The position numbers and the translations under genes are program-made. A stretch of 64,000 bases of DNA from Synechococcus sp. PCC 7335. GTDB lineage: Bacteria; Cyanobacteriota; Cyanobacteriia; Phormidesmidales; Phormidesmidaceae. How positions within the stretch are numbered: position 1 is the first letter of the stretch; every line of letters starts with the position of its first letter. Below the pieces are notes generated by a model. That model did not search any database, had not been told where the DNA came from, and was given only the letters and a program-made list of their open reading frames with translations. Positions 51,537 through 62,539 of this stretch are shown one piece after another. The stretch is from positions 318,477 through 382,476 of the forward strand of contig NZ_DS989904.1 in NCBI RefSeq assembly GCF_000155595.1. Reading direction: 5' to 3'.

Positions 51537-52769
51537 TTAGCAAAAACATTCTTGTGGTAACAACAGCTTCTGCAAATAGCTGGCTGTATGAGCCGCGCCC
51601 TGTAAATCAATGGTGGGAATCACCGACGTTTGAGCAGATGTTTGAGCCGGCATTTGAGCGGACGTTTGTTGTATGGCCGTTACGACAGCATCGGCAAAGC
51701 GTTCTGCCTGCAAGTCTGACGGAGTGAGCAAAGTCAAAAGGCCCAGGCGCGCTAGCTTTTCGGCTCGGATACGCTGTTCGTCGGTTTGGCTAGGGTTCAA
51801 AGAAGGTAGCAGCAGCGATCGCACGCCAGTTCTCAACAGATTCATCGTCGTGTTGTAACCACCCAAACTCACTGACAAGTCAGCTTTATCCATGTAGTCA
51901 ATCAATCGCGATGTGTATCTTCGCAGCGTAACGTTGGGCCGATCGGCCGCCGCCCGTTGCAGATCTAAAAAGTCTGCTTCAGGCATAAATGGCCCGGCAA
52001 AAGCATAGATTTGGTGGGACAGCCGATTGGCTAAAAGTGAGCTGGCATCTACAGCAGCCCTCAATAGGGGATACCCATGTCTGCCACCACCCGCACTCAC
52101 CACAATCGTTGGTGACGAGTCACTGAGTCCGGCAATGTCGTCTAGGGTTGGCGTTTTTATGGTAGGTGATGACTGGGCTACATAGCCCGTATAGATAATC
52201 TCGCAGTTCAAATCGCGCACCCGAGAAAAACAATCTTCTAGCGGTTGAAAATTCGCATCAGCGTGAAACAACACTGCATCATAAAACTGATTGATTAACC
52301 GACACACCTTAGCCGCTCTTCTAGCCTTCGTATCAGCTGGTAGCGGCTGAGTCATAATCAAATCTCTGAGGCTACAGACTATTTTGACCGGCCATGGTGA
52401 AGCCTTAGCCTGTTCGAGCAAAGGCTTTAGCTCATACTTCATTCTCAACTTGCTAAAAGGAAAACACTCTGTAATCAGACAGTCTGGCCGAAACCAGTCA
52501 AACACATCGAGCAGTTGCTGTTTACGCTGCGTCTTTACCTCCTCAAGCGATCGCGTCTCATCTAGCGGTACCAGCTTTGCCTCCTTTTCCCAAAGTCCCG
52601 GTAAACAAACCATCTTCACCTCAGCTGGCAACTCAAACGCCGATACCAGTTGACCACCGTTGACAAAGCAAACCTCAAACGTTGGCACCAGGCTGCGGAT
52701 AATCTCTCGACAGCGCACTAAATGGCCTATCCCAGCCAAATGCTGGCAGTAGATCATAATTTTTTTCAT
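51537..52769 (-). CDS. MurG/COG4671-like predicted glycosyltransferase, copy 1
   Basis: 410 residues of GT-B type. The N-terminal acceptor-domain motif CQHLAGIGHLVRCREIIRSL (GxGHxxR) and the donor-domain segment TIVVSAGGGRHGYPLLRAAV, then ADLSVSLGGYNTTMNLL and PSLNPSQTDEQRIRAEKLARLG, match the predicted glycosyltransferase family COG4671. The tail carries QTSAQMPAQTSAQTS repeats. Homologous along its length to the genes at 52838 and 54137. Part of the minus-strand cluster. Confidence 0.85.
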   Translation of the reverse strand: MKKIMIYCQHLAGIGHLVRCREIIRSLVPTFEVCFVNGGQLVSAFELPAEVKMVCLPGLWEKEAKLVPLDETRSLEEVKTQRKQQLLDVFDWFRPDCLITECFPFSKLRMKYELKPLLEQAKASPWPVKIVCSLRDLIMTQPLPADTKARRAAKVCRLINQFYDAVLFHADANFQPLEDCFSRVRDLNCEIIYTGYVAQSSPTIKTPTLDDIAGLSDSSPTIVVSAGGGRHGYPLLRAAVDASSLLANRLSHQIYAFAGPFMPEADFLDLQRAAADRPNVTLRRYTSRLIDYMDKADLSVSLGGYNTTMNLLRTGVRSLLLPSLNPSQTDEQRIRAEKLARLGLLTLLTPSDLQAERFADAVVTAIQQTSAQMPAQTSAQTSVIPTIDLQGAAHTASYLQKLLLPQECFC

Positions 52770-52837
52770 CTTTCTCTTTCTTTAAGAGTCAATAAAACAA
52801 ATGCAAGAACGAACAAACAAACGAACGAAGCGCCAAT

Positions 52838-54067
52838 CTACGCTGCGCTCATCTGCGGGATGTCTTCATGCTCAGCCAATCCGACATCTGCTAAGGTGCC
52901 TGTCGCGAGCGCATTAACGAATCGCGCTGTATTGTCTACGCCGTTGAGATTAACCTTAATTTGACTAGGCGAATGCTGAAGATGCGCGATCACTGCCTCA
53001 GAAAAGCGCTCAGGTTCTAAATCTTCTGGGTAGATCCGCCGCGCTTTTCCTAGCTGTGATAGTCGCTCAACGCGCATAGTTTGCTCTTGATCGCCATTGC
53101 CCACAAATGGCATCATCATGGCCCTTACACCTGTTGTCAAAATGTTCATAGTGGTGTTGTAGCCAGACATACTGATCGAGAGTTCTGCTTTCTCCATGAA
53201 AGCTAGCAAGTTGGGCGTGTAGCGGTGAATCTGAAGGTTGGTGCGATCACGTGCCATTGCCTTGAGCGCCCAAAATTTATGGCTAGGCATGAACGGTCCG
53301 GTAAATATCTGAATATGGTGAGGAATCTCACGCTCTAATATTTCAGCGGCTGCCACAGCGCACTCAAGCAACTCATGACCGAAGCGGCCACCGCCAACGC
53401 TCACCAAAATCATCGGTTCAGGCTTAGACAGGGTAAGCCGATCAACCCCAGTGAGCCGATTATTTTCAGGCCGTTGCACCACATATCCGGTATAGCGCAC
53501 ATCGCAGTTCAAATCAGCTACTCTAGAGAAACTCTCTTGCAATGGGTGTAAGGCAGGATCGCCGTGGATTAGCAGCTGATCAAAATGTTCATTAATTAAG
53601 CGCACAACCTTCGCCTCGTGGCGGGCCTGATCGGATTTAGTGACAACAATGTCCCGCAGGCTAGAAACGATCTTGGTTCCCTGCGCTTTGGCCGCCTCGA
53701 TTAGCGGCAGTAGCTCAAAAGAGAATCGTCTCCTGCCAAAAGGAAAAAGCTCAATCATCAGCACATCCGGCTGAAAATCTCGTATCGTTGCCAAAAGCCG
53801 CTGTCGGCGGAACTCCTGCGCTTTTTCCAGGCTAAGATGCGGATCAACCGGTCGTAGCTCGCGAAATTCAGCGTCGGTCTTAATCGCAGGCAAGTTAATT
53901 AGCTGTACATCTTCTGGTGGCTGAAACCCTTGGATAACCTCGCCGCCGTTGACAAAGCATACTTTAAAGTCAGCGCCCAGCCCTCGGACAATTTCCATAC
54001 TGCGAATGAGGTGTCCCATCCCCAGAATGTGCTGACAGTAGAACATTAGTTTTTTCATGGCAGTCAT
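52838..54067 (-). CDS. MurG/COG4671-like predicted glycosyltransferase, copy 2
   Basis: 409 residues. CQHILGMGHLIRSMEIVRGL, a central IVSSLRDIVVTKSD, DLNCDVRYTGYVVQRP, ILVSVGGGRFGHELLECAV, and AELSISMSGYNTTMNILTTGVRAMMMP align step by step with copy 1, so the two arose by tandem duplication. The serine/glycine loop SMSGYNTT and the GGGRFG loop would hold the nucleotide-sugar. Acceptor and sugar unknown. Gaps to neighbours are about 70 bp. Confidence 0.85.
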   Translation of the reverse strand: MTAMKKLMFYCQHILGMGHLIRSMEIVRGLGADFKVCFVNGGEVIQGFQPPEDVQLINLPAIKTDAEFRELRPVDPHLSLEKAQEFRRQRLLATIRDFQPDVLMIELFPFGRRRFSFELLPLIEAAKAQGTKIVSSLRDIVVTKSDQARHEAKVVRLINEHFDQLLIHGDPALHPLQESFSRVADLNCDVRYTGYVVQRPENNRLTGVDRLTLSKPEPMILVSVGGGRFGHELLECAVAAAEILEREIPHHIQIFTGPFMPSHKFWALKAMARDRTNLQIHRYTPNLLAFMEKAELSISMSGYNTTMNILTTGVRAMMMPFVGNGDQEQTMRVERLSQLGKARRIYPEDLEPERFSEAVIAHLQHSPSQIKVNLNGVDNTARFVNALATGTLADVGLAEHEDIPQMSAA

Positions 54068-54136
54068 CTCTAAATCGTTGTAGTCAGAATGTTTTAGTCA
54101 GAATGTCTCAGTGAGATTGTTGACGGGTATAGCAGG

Positions 54137-55480
54137 TCATGCCAGCCAGCCCATAAAAGGGGGAACAAGAACAGATTTAGTCATCAGATCGGGAATCGGC
54201 TGTTGAGCTGAGGCTAGAAGCGCGCTGAGATATCCTGAGATTTGAGGCAGTCCGTTCAAGTCCAAACTCTCTGACCTATGCTTTGGTCGCGTTGCCATCC
54301 TCTCGGGTGGGAGAAAGGGCTGATAGAGCAGATCGAGTACCGCCTGAATAAGCGATCGCCCAGTTACCTGCTCAGGATGGACCATTGTTATCCAGCCTTT
54401 TTTGGCAAAGTTAATCGCGCGAATTAGCTGCTCTTGCGAGGGATGTATTCGTGGAACCACCACCGTTCGTTTGCCCAGCATCAGAATTTCTGTCAGTGTG
54501 TTGTACCCACCCATAGACACCACCGCATCCGCTGCCTGCAAATAGCTCAGCAGATCGGTAGTGAAGCTCTGGAAACTGATACTAGAGCAGCCAGCCGCTA
54601 ATTCCTCCAGCCTTGAGCGCTGTTCGATCGGCATTTCAGGCCCGCTCAATATCAAACTGTGGATAATAGGACCGGTCACATCAGACAAGTCCAGCGACGG
54701 TTCATCATCAGCGGTTTGGCGGCGTGGGGGTAAAGCCTGAATCAGCTTCAGCCCTTCTAGGTAGGTATGGACTAGGCTAAAGCCATCTTCTCCGCCACCC
54801 GGCGTAACCAGCACCAGTGAGTCAGTCGGTTTAATGCCTAGCTGCGCTCTAGGATCAACCTGCTCGTGGCCCGTTAATTGCTTGCGAATATAGCCGCAAT
54901 ATCGCACTTTATGTGCAATTGGTAAGGGCAATCGATATTCTTGAACTAAGTCAAATACGCTCTGCACGCCAGCGACTAAGACCTGGTCGTAGTGGGTTTG
55001 AATAGCGTGGTGGTGACCCCATCTACACCATTCGTCAATCGTCTTTTCGGGGGTATCTAAAATATCACGCAGCAACAGCACCCGCTTATTCTCAGGCACC
55101 GTTTGTTGTAAGTAGCTCAGAGTATTAGCCAGTTCACCCCTTAAACCAGTAGGCTTTTTATCAACTAGTAGCAGATTAGGTTTGAAGTGAACAGCGGCTG
55201 AGTAAATTAGGTGCGATCGCAGCGCCACTGTCTCTTCAATAGAAGTTCCGAGATACTTTGCAGAAAGCTCTCCAGAAACGCCTCGATTCAAACAGGGCAG
55301 TTTGATATAGTCCAATCCCTGAGGTAGGCGAAACTCGTGAATCATTGGCGAACCGGACACCAGTAAGATAGAGAGATTTGGCCAGTGTTTAAGCAGATGT
55401 TCGCAGATCGCCAGCATCCGTCGCAGGTTGCCGAGCCCAAAAGCATCATGAGAGTACACCATTATTCGAGTAGTGTTCAT
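54137..55480 (-). CDS. MurG/COG4671-like predicted glycosyltransferase, copy 3 (divergent)
   Basis: 447 residues from the ATG at 55480, which has a GGAGAG ribosome binding site; a frame open to 55603 would add 41 residues unlike the family. MVYSHDAFGLGNLRRMLAICEHLLKHWP is the COG4671 start (here GLGN replaces GxGH), followed by VLLLRDILDTPEKTI, LVLVTPGGGEDGFSLVHTYLEGL and ADAVVSMGGYNTLTEILMLGKRTVVVP. More distant from copies 1 and 2 than these are from each other. First gene of the cluster, divergent from the sensor kinase. Confidence 0.86.
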   Translation of the reverse strand: MNTTRIMVYSHDAFGLGNLRRMLAICEHLLKHWPNLSILLVSGSPMIHEFRLPQGLDYIKLPCLNRGVSGELSAKYLGTSIEETVALRSHLIYSAAVHFKPNLLLVDKKPTGLRGELANTLSYLQQTVPENKRVLLLRDILDTPEKTIDEWCRWGHHHAIQTHYDQVLVAGVQSVFDLVQEYRLPLPIAHKVRYCGYIRKQLTGHEQVDPRAQLGIKPTDSLVLVTPGGGEDGFSLVHTYLEGLKLIQALPPRRQTADDEPSLDLSDVTGPIIHSLILSGPEMPIEQRSRLEELAAGCSSISFQSFTTDLLSYLQAADAVVSMGGYNTLTEILMLGKRTVVVPRIHPSQEQLIRAINFAKKGWITMVHPEQVTGRSLIQAVLDLLYQPFLPPERMATRPKHRSESLDLNGLPQISGYLSALLASAQQPIPDLMTKSVLVPPFMGWLA

Positions 55481-55626
55481 ATGTATTCTCTCTCCATCTT
55501 CTTTCCATCGTTTCGGACATCTTGTAGATAGCTTGTGGCGAATTCGCAGCGAATCAATCGAGCCGACTAAGTTCAATATTGCAAGCAGCCATAAGGGAGG
55601 CATGAAATTTTAGTTAGAAGAAATTC

Positions 55627-55695: not shown

Positions 55696-55742
55696 CCACC
55701 GTTAGCTAGAGTGGATGGCCTGGCGTCTTTTTGGTGAGTGCC

Positions 55743-57236
55743 ATGAACAATTCGTCAAATGCCTTTGCGTCAAATGCCTTTGCTAAGATTGGGCACTCTC
55801 TATGGCAGCAATTTTTCAAAGAAACGCGTACGCGAATCTTGTTGCTTTATGCGTTCCTGATGCTGATCTTAACTGGGCTAACGGTTCCTATATTTAGATA
55901 TCTCCTATTTCAACAAGTGGATCAGCGAGTGCGAGCTAACCTCGCCATAGAAAGAGAAAATTTCTTAGCGGCTTTCGCAGATTGGCAGCGACCTAATGGA
56001 CAAAACGCTCAGGACCTAAAATCTTTTGTTGTTGAATATTTAGACAATAACCTCGTAGAGGACGACAACTTTCAACTTGTTTTGATAGAGGGTGTAGGTC
56101 ATTTTTCTAGCCCAGACTATTTACTAACGCCCTTTAGTCCAGATTCAGACCTGTTTGAGCAGTGGCAAACAGTGACTGCCTTCACCATGGATAGCCAATT
56201 GAGCGGTGATCCTAAGATTGGCAAACTCTTATACAAAGCTGACCCATTGATTGTTGACGGCAGGCAACTAGCAGTACATGTGGTGGTTCACGCGGCGGCA
56301 GGAGAGCGCCAAGAGACACTTGAGGGAGTCTATGTCTTCAGCTGGATGATCGTGTCAATAGTGGCGCTTTCACTTTTGCTAGCTTGGATAGGGGCAGGTC
56401 GCCTACTGAAACCTATTCGAGAGCTAGCTCAAACGGCGCGCTCCATTAGTGAATCTAATCTGACTAGGCGAATTCCGCTGCCTAATGGCAACGGCGAACT
56501 CACTGATTTGACCCACACTTTCAATGACATGATGGATCGAATTCAGGCCGCATTTGACAGCCAGCGCGACTTTATAAACGACGCAGGACATGAACTGCGT
56601 ACCCCGATCACAATTATTCAGGGTCACTTGGAGCTGATGGATGAGGAGAATCCCCAAGAGTGCCGAGAAACCATCAAGCTAGTGATGGATGAGCTAGATC
56701 GAATGGGGCGATTGGTGAGCGATATGCTGCTGCTAGCCAAGTCTGAAAGACCTAACTTCTTACAGTTAGAGACCGTTGAGATAGATGCTTTTGCCGAGGA
56801 AATCTTTACGAAAGCAACTGCGCTAGCTCAGCGTCACTGGATACTAAAAGTAGAAGGCAAAGGCAATGTTGTCTGCGATCGCCAGAAGCTCACTGGCGCA
56901 ATTCTTAATCTACTAAAAAACGCTGTTCAGCATACCCAAGGAACAGACACGATAGAGCTGGGCTGTTATTCGAAAAAGGACGCGGATCATCCAAACCATG
57001 ATCAGGTTCGGTTTTGGGTGCGCGATACGGGTGAGGGCATTAGCCCAGCTGACCAACAGCGGATCTTTTCTCGGTTTGCCAGAGGTCAAAATTATCAGCG
57101 ACGCTCAGATGGGTCTGGATTGGGACTGGCCATTACAGCTGCTGTGGCCGAAGCACACGGCGGCCAGGTAACGCTGCATAGCAAAGTCGGTCAGGGGACT
57201 ACTTTTTGGTTGGATTTGCCGCAGAGGAGGCCGTGA
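55743..57236 (+). CDS. HAMP-containing sensor histidine kinase
   Basis: 497 residues from ATG 55743 (GGTGAG just upstream; TTG 55731 is an alternative). Membrane helix 1 at about 30-55, a periplasmic sensor of about 130 residues, helix 2 at about 192-215 (MIVSIVALSLLLAWIGAGRLL), HAMP to about 270, then the phosphoacceptor His283 in NDAGHELRTPITIIQGHLEL. N box NLLKNAVQHT, G1 DTGEGI, G2 GSGLGLAI complete the ATPase. Near the N-terminus a 15-bp duplication encodes FASN twice. Its 3' end overlaps the convergent REC-only regulator gene by 38 bp. Signal unknown; nearby glycan cluster is the likely target. Confidence 0.92.
   Translation: MNNSSNAFASNAFAKIGHSLWQQFFKETRTRILLLYAFLMLILTGLTVPIFRYLLFQQVDQRVRANLAIERENFLAAFADWQRPNGQNAQDLKSFVVEYLDNNLVEDDNFQLVLIEGVGHFSSPDYLLTPFSPDSDLFEQWQTVTAFTMDSQLSGDPKIGKLLYKADPLIVDGRQLAVHVVVHAAAGERQETLEGVYVFSWMIVSIVALSLLLAWIGAGRLLKPIRELAQTARSISESNLTRRIPLPNGNGELTDLTHTFNDMMDRIQAAFDSQRDFINDAGHELRTPITIIQGHLELMDEENPQECRETIKLVMDELDRMGRLVSDMLLLAKSERPNFLQLETVEIDAFAEEIFTKATALAQRHWILKVEGKGNVVCDRQKLTGAILNLLKNAVQHTQGTDTIELGCYSKKDADHPNHDQVRFWVRDTGEGISPADQQRIFSRFARGQNYQRRSDGSGLGLAITAAVAEAHGGQVTLHSKVGQGTTFWLDLPQRRP
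55753..55782. repeat. 15-bp perfect tandem repeat near the sensor kinase N-terminus
   Basis: CGTCAAATGCCTTTG at 55753-55767 and 55768-55782, in frame, starting four codons after the chosen ATG. Confidence 0.95.
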
Positions 57237-57579
57237 TCTGGCGTTCTACTGCCGCGAGCAGTTCCTTAAAGCGAAACGGCTTTTGCAGATAGTCGTTGGC
57301 TCGCTCGGCCAAAACGTCCTGCTGTAAATCGCTCATAGCAGTCATGACAATTACGGGCGATAAAACGCCGCGATTACGCAATTCCCTCAGCACCGTCCAA
57401 CCATCTTTTACAGGCAGCCTTAAATCCAGCAAAATAGCATCATAGGTCTGTGCCTCTGATGCTGCTAGCGCCTGATTGCCATCTACAGCGACTGTGATAT
57501 CAAAGCCATGCTTTCTAAAGCCTTTGGCAATAAAGGCGGCGAGGTTTTCCTCGTCTTCAACAATCAGAATTTGATTCAT
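57199..57579 (-). CDS. Single-domain response regulator
   Basis: 126 residues of one receiver domain: acidic pocket VEDEEN (residues 7-12), phosphoacceptor Asp52 in AILLDLRLPVKDGW, Thr in VIVMTAMSD and Lys in LQKPFRFKELL. No output domain, so it would act through phosphotransfer or protein contact. Downstream of the OmpR-type regulator on the same strand (gap 140 bp), and convergent with the kinase with a 38-bp overlap at the 3' ends. Confidence 0.92.
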   Translation of the reverse strand: MNQILIVEDEENLAAFIAKGFRKHGFDITVAVDGNQALAASEAQTYDAILLDLRLPVKDGWTVLRELRNRGVLSPVIVMTAMSDLQQDVLAERANDYLQKPFRFKELLAAVERQITASSAANPTKK

Positions 57580-57719
57580 TTTAAGCGTTTAACCGAATCT
57601 GAAAAACAAGCCTGGGATTAGTATGGACATACCTTACTCTGTGAGGGCTATCGCTTGCATGAGAAAGTTCTTATAATTCCTCGCATCCGTGCTCGCCGTT
57701 CGTGCTCACATAACCGCCA

Positions 57720-58400
57720 TCACGACTGCCGCAATCGATAGCCTATCCCGCGCACGGTTTCAATCAGATCGGCTCCTAGCTTTTTTCGTAGATAGCCCAC
57801 ATAGACATCAACGATATTAGATCCTGGGCTGTAGTCATACCCCCACACCCTATCCAATAGCTGCTCCCGGCTTAATACCTGACCTGGATGCCTGAAAAAA
57901 GTTTCTGCTAGCGTAAACTCCCGGGCGGGCAAATCGACTATCTCACCGCTTACCTGCACCCGCCTAGTGAGCAAATCCAGACTCACATTGCTTGCCCACA
58001 GCATCTGATCGTTGCCAGTAGCAGCGCTTCCTGCCGCAGGAGCCTGCCTCAGGCGGACTCTCACCCTAGCTAGCAGCTCCTCAAAGCGAAAGGGTTTGGT
58101 CACATAGTCGTCTGCGCCCCCTTCTAGTCCGGTCACCTTATCGTGGATGTCATCTCTGGCAGTCAGAATAATGATGGGTAAGGTTGCGCCCTGACCGCGC
58201 AGCTCTTCAATCACCTGAAGACCATCTTTGTCAGGCAACCCTAAGTCAAGAATAAGCAGATCGAAGCTAGCCTCTAGCGTTTGCGCGATCGCCTGTTGAG
58301 CAGTAATAGCGACCTCCGTTGTAAATCCATGAGCATTCAATCCCTTCTTGATAAAGGATGCAATTCGAGGCTCGTCTTCTGTAATTAGAATCTTGTGCAT
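57720..58400 (-). CDS. OmpR-family response regulator
   Basis: 226 residues. Receiver domain (about 1-118) with phosphoacceptor Asp52 in LLILDLGLPDKDG and TARDD/KPFRFEELL. C-terminal winged-helix DNA-binding domain (about 130-226) with LTRRVQVSGEIVDLPAREFTLAETFFRHPGQVLSREQLLDRVWGYDYSPGSNIVDVYVGYLRKKL. Probable partner of the kinase at 55743, though the two are on opposite strands. The ATGAGA direct repeats 2 kb away are candidate targets. Confidence 0.93.
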   Translation of the reverse strand: MHKILITEDEPRIASFIKKGLNAHGFTTEVAITAQQAIAQTLEASFDLLILDLGLPDKDGLQVIEELRGQGATLPIIILTARDDIHDKVTGLEGGADDYVTKPFRFEELLARVRVRLRQAPAAGSAATGNDQMLWASNVSLDLLTRRVQVSGEIVDLPAREFTLAETFFRHPGQVLSREQLLDRVWGYDYSPGSNIVDVYVGYLRKKLGADLIETVRGIGYRLRQS

Positions 58401-61372: not shown

Positions 61373-61585
61373 AGTGTGAAACAAGCAGGGAAATAAGGGC
61401 GTTCGAGAACGGATAAGCGCTGATGAAGCTGATAAGGATGGACAGACCTTTGTATGAACCAGAAGACCCTCAGCCATCTCCAAAGTGTATATCAAACGCT
61501 TGAGTCAATGACCGTTGCTCCCTAGAATTAGGTTTGTATTAAGGAATGCGAAAACTTCAAGCAGGACTAGAGAGTAAGAGGAACC

Positions 61586-62539
61586 ATGGCTGAACGTCCA
61601 ATCATCGTTGGCATTGTGGGCGATAGCGCCGCCGGCAAAACTACCTTGACCCGTGGCATCGCCCAGGTGCTAGGTGAAGAAAACGTCGTAGCCATCTGTA
61701 CAGACGACTATCACCGCTATGATCGTAAACAGCGGGCAGAGATGGGCATTTCCGCGCTGCACCCAGACTGTAACTATCTCGATATCATCGAACAACACCT
61801 GCAAGATCTGCGTAATGGCAAAGCAATCCTCAAGCCGATCTACAACCACACAACAGGTGAGTTTGATCCGCCTGAATACATTCAGCCTAAAAAGTTTGTC
61901 ATTGTAGAAGGATTGCTGGGCTATTCTACCAAAGCCGCTCGCGACGCTTATGATGTGAAAGTATATCTAGCACCGCCTGAGGATTTGCGAGCGAAGTGGA
62001 AAATCAAGCGAGACACCCGCAAGCGTGGCTATACAGATGAGCAAGTCCTCGAAGCTTTACGCAAGCGTGAGCCCGATTCAGAAGCCTTTATCCGTCCGCA
62101 GAGGCAGTGGTCCGATGTAATCGTGTCTTTTATTCCACCTGAAAACAAGGACGATCAGGGCAACGACCTGCTGCTCGATGTCAAACTGGTTCTACGGCCA
62201 ACGCTGCCTCACCCAGACTTTACCCATATCCTCGATGACAAAGGTAATGACCTAGGTGATGCAATCCGCTTACTGCTAGATCGCGATATGGGCAAGCCAG
62301 TCGATGTATTGTCTGTAGATGGCCACGCTAACGAAGCACAGGTACAGCAGCTAGAGCGTATCCTGTGTAGCGAGGTACCTTATCTGGGTCAGTTCTGTAG
62401 CCTAGAGGGTAATCAGGATGTGGGCAAGGTAGTCGGTACGACAGGCGAGTCGCTGCAAAGCTATCCGCTGGCGCTGACACAGCTATTGATCACCTATCAC
62501 ATGCTGAAGGCTGTAAAGCGAACTCAAGGGAGGAAGTAA
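61586..62539 (+). CDS. Phosphoribulokinase/uridine kinase-family paralog
   Basis: 317 residues. VGIVGDSAAGKTTLTRGIAQVLG (Walker A at 12-19), VVAICTDDYHRYDRKQRAEMGISALHPDCN, KPIYNHTTGEFDPPEYIQPKKFVIVEGLLGY and WKIKRDTRKRGYT align with phosphoribulokinase. But the redox cysteine that Calvin-cycle PRK carries in Walker A (GCGKS) is Ala16 here, while Cys38 (matching the second) remains. The C-terminal half (KPVDVLSVDGHANEAQVQQLERIL onward) differs from true PRK. I know this paralog from other cyanobacteria, without a proven substrate. AGAGGA lies 4-5 nt before the ATG. Confidence 0.88.
   Translation: MAERPIIVGIVGDSAAGKTTLTRGIAQVLGEENVVAICTDDYHRYDRKQRAEMGISALHPDCNYLDIIEQHLQDLRNGKAILKPIYNHTTGEFDPPEYIQPKKFVIVEGLLGYSTKAARDAYDVKVYLAPPEDLRAKWKIKRDTRKRGYTDEQVLEALRKREPDSEAFIRPQRQWSDVIVSFIPPENKDDQGNDLLLDVKLVLRPTLPHPDFTHILDDKGNDLGDAIRLLLDRDMGKPVDVLSVDGHANEAQVQQLERILCSEVPYLGQFCSLEGNQDVGKVVGTTGESLQSYPLALTQLLITYHMLKAVKRTQGRK

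Follow-up and report, generated by a model that had tools for sequence, protein, structure and literature searches.

A second phosphoribulokinase-family kinase of Synechococcus sp. PCC 7335 in which neither plant-type redox cysteine pair is complete

The window analysed here, a stretch of 64,000 nucleotides from Synechococcus sp. PCC 7335 (contig NZ_DS989904.1, positions 318,477 to 382,476), carries a PRK-family gene with an ATG start (61586..62539, plus strand) whose product of 317 residues probably acts as a true Ru5P kinase, one that differs from the plant-type enzyme and does not have its thioredoxin switch. This reading was preferred because of family, fold, an intact catalytic dyad with intact Ru5P and ATP ligands, and purifying selection; and also because both plant-type redox pairs are absent and the two full-length relatives that scored best among those found outside cyanobacteria belong to Rubisco clusters. 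Points weighing against it are a leucine at residue 111, the lack of a conserved neighbour, a promoter-like block unique to this gene and a weak grouping in the tree.

A single alignment, containing 40 paralogs, 24 canonical cyanobacterial PRKs and some smaller groups, served to compare residues. Ortholog counts out of 110 refer to the window protein and 109 further loci (108 different sequences), and seven additional orthologs with medium or low ortholog scores were included in the residue check. The following features are considered:

61500..61528, plus strand: promoter-like block TTGAGT-N17-TAGAAT, beginning 86 bases before the ATG, from a footprint of six close relatives
61586..62539, plus strand: PRK-family kinase paralog (PF00485, NF005655; best PDB matches 9qko, 9qkp and 9qkn)
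61604..61642, plus strand: beta1 and Walker A P-loop, IVGIVGDSAAGKT, residues 7-19 with Ala15-Ala16; Ala16 in 110/110 orthologs
61697..61726, plus strand: CTDDYHRYDR, residues 38-47, with Cys38, catalytic Asp40 and the Ru5P ligands His43 and Arg47, mapped from excerpts of PMC5241800 and PMC9978339; 110/110
61769..61771, plus strand: Cys62, Ala in 24/24 canonical PRKs and Cys in the Mycobacterium and Allomeiothermus relatives
61841..61849, plus strand: Tyr86-Asn87-His88, where Tyr86 and His88 are Ru5P-phosphate ligands and His88 is also the dyad histidine (CrPRK His105), by alignment mapping
61907..61918, plus strand: EGLL, residues 108-111, with Leu111 for the His of EGLH; Leu in 110/110 orthologs
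62366..62398, plus strand: Cys261-X9-Cys271, candidate cysteine pair of the cyanobacterial branch; Cys in 110/110 at both positions

Family assignment and the canonical PRK of the same genome

The paralog scored 146 bits against Pfam PF00485 (PRK; cut-off 22) and 457.6 bits against the NCBIfam phosphoribulokinase model NF005655 (cut-off 236), which could not separate both PRKs of this genome, the canonical one reaching 501 bits. The latter, a protein of 335 residues, was located at G000:C1:4205885-4206430 (L001) and carries Cys19, Cys41, Cys230 and Cys236; it and the paralog were the only two members recovered when the assembly (95% complete) was searched with PF00485. The original prediction of a paralog was thus confirmed; the circumstance named as refuting it, a genome lacking any other PRK gene, does not apply here. 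Its description of a conserved catalytic kinase part and a C-terminal half divergent from Calvin-cycle PRK also agreed with the identities to the canonical enzyme, which were 36% overall, 43% over the kinase part (residues 5-184) and 26% over 114 alignable columns of the C-terminal half. Judged by these sequences, the second PRK is clearly distinct from the plant-type Calvin-cycle enzyme of the same genome.

Model NF011997 (PRK15453), which we take to represent bacterial-type (class III) PRK, gave 49.7 bits on the paralog, below its cut-off of 362, and the two Udk models TIGR00235 and NF004018 also stayed below theirs (104.4 vs 220.3 and 111.2 vs 180 bits). PRKs have been divided into classes IA, IB, II and III (Wilson et al. 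2019, as cited in an excerpt of Fukui et al. 2022, PMC9199185); neither cysteine pair of class IA is complete in the paralog.

Structural relatives

An AF2 model of the paralog, built with 40 sequences (pLDDT 84, pTM 0.85), matched 9qkp, 9qko and 9qkn with Z values of 38.1, 37.6 and 32.8 and 72-76% identity over 300-308 residues. Next were archaeal PRK 5b3f (Z 28.6) and plant and cyanobacterial PRKs (24-26); R. sphaeroides PRK reached 19.2, and uridine kinases gave 17-19. By phmmer, similarity to the PDB class extended over residues 1-309 and 1-311 (E 1.3e-166 and 4.8e-158). The three entries were released on 2026-04-08 under titles reading "cyanobacteria specific PRK" and derive from Chroococcidiopsis (Hyella disjuncta) PCC 6712 (9qko, 9qkp) and Gloeocapsa PCC 73106 (9qkn); in the sequence table, 9qkn was labelled 'Uridine kinase'. 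Their alignments also displayed the A15-A16 P-loop and the four cysteines discussed below. The window protein is therefore a member of this structural family, which is already in the PDB and so known to structural biologists, the PDB titles being silent on any test of PRK activity. No paper on this PRK class was recognised in the literature searched, a scope that left out bioRxiv and most subscription journals. The label "cyanobacteria specific" appears not to suit the group in its wider sense, since more distant full-length relatives were encountered in Actinomycetota and Deinococcota.

Redox cysteines

The P-loop of the paralog reads GDSAAGKT, and the alanine at residue 16 stands where all 24 canonical cyanobacterial PRKs compared have cysteine; the replacement of the first switch cysteine, already pointed out in the original prediction, was observed in 110/110 orthologs. 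Cysteine numbers 19, 41, 230 and 236 are those given for Anabaena PRK in an excerpt of Fukui et al. 2022 (PMC9199185). The N-terminal pair Cys19/Cys41 was complete in 24/24 canonical enzymes and corresponded to A16 and C38 in 110/110 orthologs; with these residues, the plant-type disulfide Cys19-Cys41 cannot form. The C-terminal pair Cys230/Cys236 was likewise present in 24/24 canonical enzymes, whereas none of the 40 aligned paralogs displayed cysteine at either column, these being gaps in 40 and 39 of them, respectively. Only Cys41 (= Cys38) is thus retained of the four. The same excerpt describes Cys230/Cys236 as the pair regulated by thioredoxin in Anabaena PRK and the C-terminal cysteine pair as important for complex formation and dissociation. 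Since thioredoxin acts on that pair in Anabaena PRK, its loss may outweigh that of the Walker A cysteine. The original prediction was right about the latter, and had overlooked the absence of Cys230/Cys236, the retention of Cys38 and the invariance of Cys62, Cys261 and Cys271.

Cys38, Cys62, Cys261 and Cys271 were invariant in 110/110 orthologs and in 7/7 further ones, so the enzyme may not be insensitive to redox. They could form other disulfides, one between Cys38 and Cys62 close to the active site and one between Cys261 and Cys271 in the C-terminal domain, so that the enzyme would be a dark-regulated PRK after all. Besides the invariance of the four residues, this agrees with Cys38 being the surviving half of the canonical N-terminal pair and with Cys261/Cys271 setting the paralog branch apart, no cysteine being found in these columns in the 24 canonical PRKs or in two PRKs encoded in Rubisco clusters (see below). 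However, a Mycobacterium relative combines Cys62 with Ser at residue 38, so Cys62 need not pair with Cys38, and invariance of cysteines is weak evidence among proteins sharing about 63-97% identity within the clade. A switch of this kind was considered rather unlikely.

According to PMC11257934, the Ru5P site is where CP12 binds to canonical PRK. This site is intact in the paralog, which may therefore not escape from CP12, although the missing C-terminal cysteine pair argues for such an escape. Insensitivity to dark inactivation, as originally proposed, was consequently supported for the absence of the plant-type switch and not for insensitivity itself, given the four invariant cysteines and the intact CP12-binding Ru5P site. 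Four ORFs with a CP12 domain were observed in the genome (G000, C1:3879220, C1:3668107, C1:1670179 and C2:172503), in open frames of 78 to 247 residues.

Active site and substrate residues

In Kono et al. 2017 (PMC5241800), the Ru5P residues of Methanospirillum hungatei PRK (MhPRK) are Arg59, Arg62, Tyr98, His100, His55 and Lys151, and Arg154 is assigned to ATP; a review (PMC9978339) gives Asp57/His105 as the catalytic dyad of Chlamydomonas PRK (CrPRK). Counted along the 5b3f alignment (chain number = published number + 20), MhPRK His55, Arg59, Arg62, Tyr98, His100, Lys151 and Arg154 corresponded to H43, R47, R50, Y86, H88, K139 and R142 of the paralog, and the dyad to D40/H88, by counting without the Chlamydomonas sequence itself. 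All eight residues were invariant in 110/110 orthologs and 7/7 further ones, which makes an unrelated substrate unlikely. The comparison of substrate-binding residues called for at the outset thus found these Ru5P and ATP ligands conserved. The suggestion that the enzyme "phosphorylates something else" lost ground, the dyad and the Ru5P-phosphate ligands being invariant and the best-scoring non-cyanobacterial relatives found being encoded with Rubisco.

Leu111 was the one PRK hallmark lost. The histidine of EGLH was present in 24/24 canonical PRKs and in archaeal 5b3f, while both Rubisco-cluster PRKs displayed Leu111. Leu111 is thus compatible with a PRK working alongside Rubisco.

Another acceptor, for instance a nucleoside or a different sugar phosphate, was judged improbable. 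It would fit the 'Uridine kinase' label of 9qkn (despite its PRK title), the leucine at residue 111 in four of eight uridine-kinase-like proteins and the scarcity of Udk, which exceeded its curated cut-off in 0/291 class genomes vs 7/14 control genomes. Against it, the paralog reached only 104 bits with the udk model (cut-off 220); residue 43 was Tyr in 8/8 uridine-kinase-like proteins and Arg47 and His88 occurred in 0/8; Leu111 is common to PRKs encoded beside Rubisco; and genomes without the paralog that both searches covered (e.g. G002, G014) also lacked udk over the cut-off, so the two do not trade places. The paralog as substitute for a missing Udk was rejected, as the 291 class genomes without Udk over the cut-off include paralog-free ones. 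Udk-like proteins scoring below the cut-off were present in some genomes.

That the paralog has little kinase activity and serves mainly as a regulatory partner, such as a subunit swapped with canonical PRK, appeared very improbable. All 78 genomes carrying the paralog did show a second PRK-like match, but the catalytic residues are all invariant, which a pseudoenzyme would not need, and the C-terminal domain is strongly unlike that of canonical PRK (26%). In M. hungatei PRK the dimer interface is made by the C-terminal domain (PMC5241800, excerpt).

Distribution and selection

Orthologs of the paralog, the probable second Ru5P kinase, were found in 78 out of 386 genomes searched in the phylum, all at 457 bits or more, with the next score at 197. 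At E 1e-20, 127 class genomes gave any match, 78 with the paralog and 49 without. A single stop interrupted the matched stretch in five of the 78; in 5/5 the gene lies within an open frame of 312-360 codons, and the stop is probably the gene's natural end. A hand tally by family, covering matching genomes (most genomes without a match are absent from the listing), uncovered an all-or-none distribution in 26 of 28 families, with the paralog present in 13 and absent in 13; it occurred in 42/42 genomes of one family (f7) and in 0/16 of another (f6). The mixed families displayed it in 5/6 (f12, where the sixth genome, G159, holds a broken copy) and 1/2 (f16) genomes. The copy of G159 (C143:15178-16098) lies in several pieces, one with a stop, and represents either a pseudogene or an error of assembly. 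From 287 confirmed loci, 80 were retained, and 79 of these had cyanobacterial titles; the exception, L099, is labelled Gracilibacteria and perhaps comes from a mislabelled bin.

Four pairs were compared for dN/dS; the ratios that could be computed were 0.02 and 0.04 by NG86 and 0.04, 0.04 and 0.08 by YN00, the most distant pair giving no value by either method. The paralog is under purifying selection.

Gene neighbourhood and upstream region

No neighbour gene was kept across loci: the commonest cluster, peptidase U32, occurred in 15/81 and every other cluster in 13 or fewer, counts that are underestimates as many of the 81 loci lie on short contigs. Visual inspection of the 25 largest neighbour clusters revealed no recognisable Calvin-cycle gene. 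In the window itself, three adjacent minus-strand genes (51537-55603) each encode a glycosyltransferase family 28 C-terminal domain. They are followed at 55731-58400 by a histidine kinase (plus strand) that overlaps tail-to-tail with a single-domain response regulator (minus strand), and then by a regulator with a Trans_reg_C domain (minus strand).

The promoter-like block upstream of the gene was conserved in Leptolyngbyaceae-like loci, and its spacer was also strongly conserved among close relatives. A looser pattern (up to four substitutions) was encountered in 26 out of 108 upstream regions, three of them copies of the window's own; the looser pattern was run without shuffled sequences for comparison, and chance may account for the weakest matches. 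With up to three mismatches, the block had one match in its own genome and the reversed control none. Within this genome it is thus unique to the paralog's gene, and no regulation shared with other Calvin genes was seen. Searches of 107 upstream regions with what we take to be the motif forms of NtcA, HLR1, LexA and CmpR/RbcR-like sites yielded 1, 0, 0 and 3 matches, respectively.

Relatives outside cyanobacteria and phylogeny

A tblastn search of a plasmid collection gave 70 matching records, five of them over 80% of the query. The two best, both at 97% coverage, were from Mycobacterium intracellulare subsp. chimaera AH16 (44.5%) and Allomeiothermus silvanus pMESIL01 (41.5%). When all were scored on a single phmmer scale, these relatives reached 272 and 251 bits, vs 183-198 for four canonical PRKs (183 for that of the same genome). 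The Mycobacterium plasmid cluster contains tkt, rpe, an aldolase, the large and small Rubisco subunits and cbbX, partly on the other strand; in Allomeiothermus, rbcL, rbcS and cbbX lie immediately upstream, rpe and fba come next, and glpX and tkt are close by. Among 50,697 phage records, nine matched the paralog, none over 80% of the query.

In the second of two kinase-domain trees, the paralog grouped with Mycobacterium alone at 91/79, and all three together at 77/0, which is weak support for joining it to the two Rubisco-cluster PRKs. A recent duplication of cyanobacterial PRK was disfavoured, as the paralog clade (100/96 in the first tree) was set apart from canonical PRK. A tree joining both was not rejected (AU p 0.165, second tree), so that either order of the splits may apply. 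The first tree drew on 21/40 aligned paralogs and the full set of 24 canonical PRKs; the second was made with 13/40 and 11/24 and excluded L133 and the Udk-like L115-L118, whereas L113, L114, L132 and L134-L140 were excluded from both. The kinase domain of 5b3f fell with canonical PRK (98/93 together with L133, and 96/94 in the second tree), with long branches flagged in both trees.

Further PRK-like proteins were noticed. L133 (G229:C240:8383-8919), from a genome without the paralog, is a third kind, with a frame of 352 residues, Ser16, Glu38 and EGLH. In L124-L127 (from genomes of the phylum), L175 (3915-5897) and L176 (3801-5900), frames or proteins of 660-708 residues, a PRK-like kinase domain stands behind some 370-400 residues. 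Such long genes on E. coli and Hirschia plasmids adjoin GtrA, GT2, phosphodiesterase-like and HAD hydrolase genes, and perhaps belong to an undescribed sugar-phosphate or lipid pathway. L113 (G103:C1:1050336) and L114 (G434:C188:5549) carry uridine-kinase-like domains C-terminally in longer proteins, the N-termini of which looked by eye TIR-domain-like in one and HTH-domain-like in the other.

Proposed role

As a second PRK, the paralog would convert ATP and Ru5P to RuBP in vivo without being turned off by the usual thioredoxin disulfides. RuBP could then still be formed while canonical PRK is tied up with GAPDH and CP12, as in darkness, dim light or sugar-fed growth, and the paralog's own invariant cysteines might provide a different switch. 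A broader proposal is that many cyanobacteria possess a second RuBP route through a thioredoxin- and CP12-independent class of Ru5P kinase, common to Rubisco-bearing actinobacteria and Deinococcota, with Rubisco running when GAPDH-CP12-PRK is shut and Cys261/Cys271 acting as a separate regulator; this is put forward tentatively, the balance being somewhat against it. If true, it would add a class to the published four-class scheme. Two reviews (PMC9978339 and PMC11257934) treat PRK in plants and in most cyanobacteria as a single enzyme that thioredoxin and CP12 close at night; in contrast, among the 127 class genomes that gave a PRK-like match, 78 hold a second PRK without either switch pair. 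Should the paralog make RuBP, it would represent an open valve absent from models of dark and sugar-fed carbon flux, and a natural switch-free PRK for engineered carbon fixation.

Comparison with known PRKs and related kinases

Udk has the PF00485 fold family in common with the paralog, and 8/8 proteins compared lacked His43, Arg47 and His88. Archaeal PRK (class II, M. hungatei 5b3f) is 44% identical to the paralog over 177 kinase-domain residues (Z 28.6), but differs in having Ser16, Thr38, Ala62 and an EGLH motif. Plant-type (class IA) PRK shares the fold family, the catalytic dyad and the Ru5P and ATP ligands; that of the same genome (36% identity) has Cys19/41, Cys230/236 and EGLH, of which the paralog retains Cys41 (= Cys38) alone. 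The Rubisco-cluster PRKs of Mycobacterium and Allomeiothermus, a comparison resting on the two such clusters found, share Ala16, Cys62, Leu111 and the catalytic residues at 43-45% aligned identity; they lack Cys261/Cys271 and are clustered with Rubisco, unlike the paralog with its lack of a conserved neighbour. The "cyanobacteria specific PRK" of 9qkn, 9qko and 9qkp displayed no essential difference from the window protein, with which it shares homology over the full length as well as the fold.
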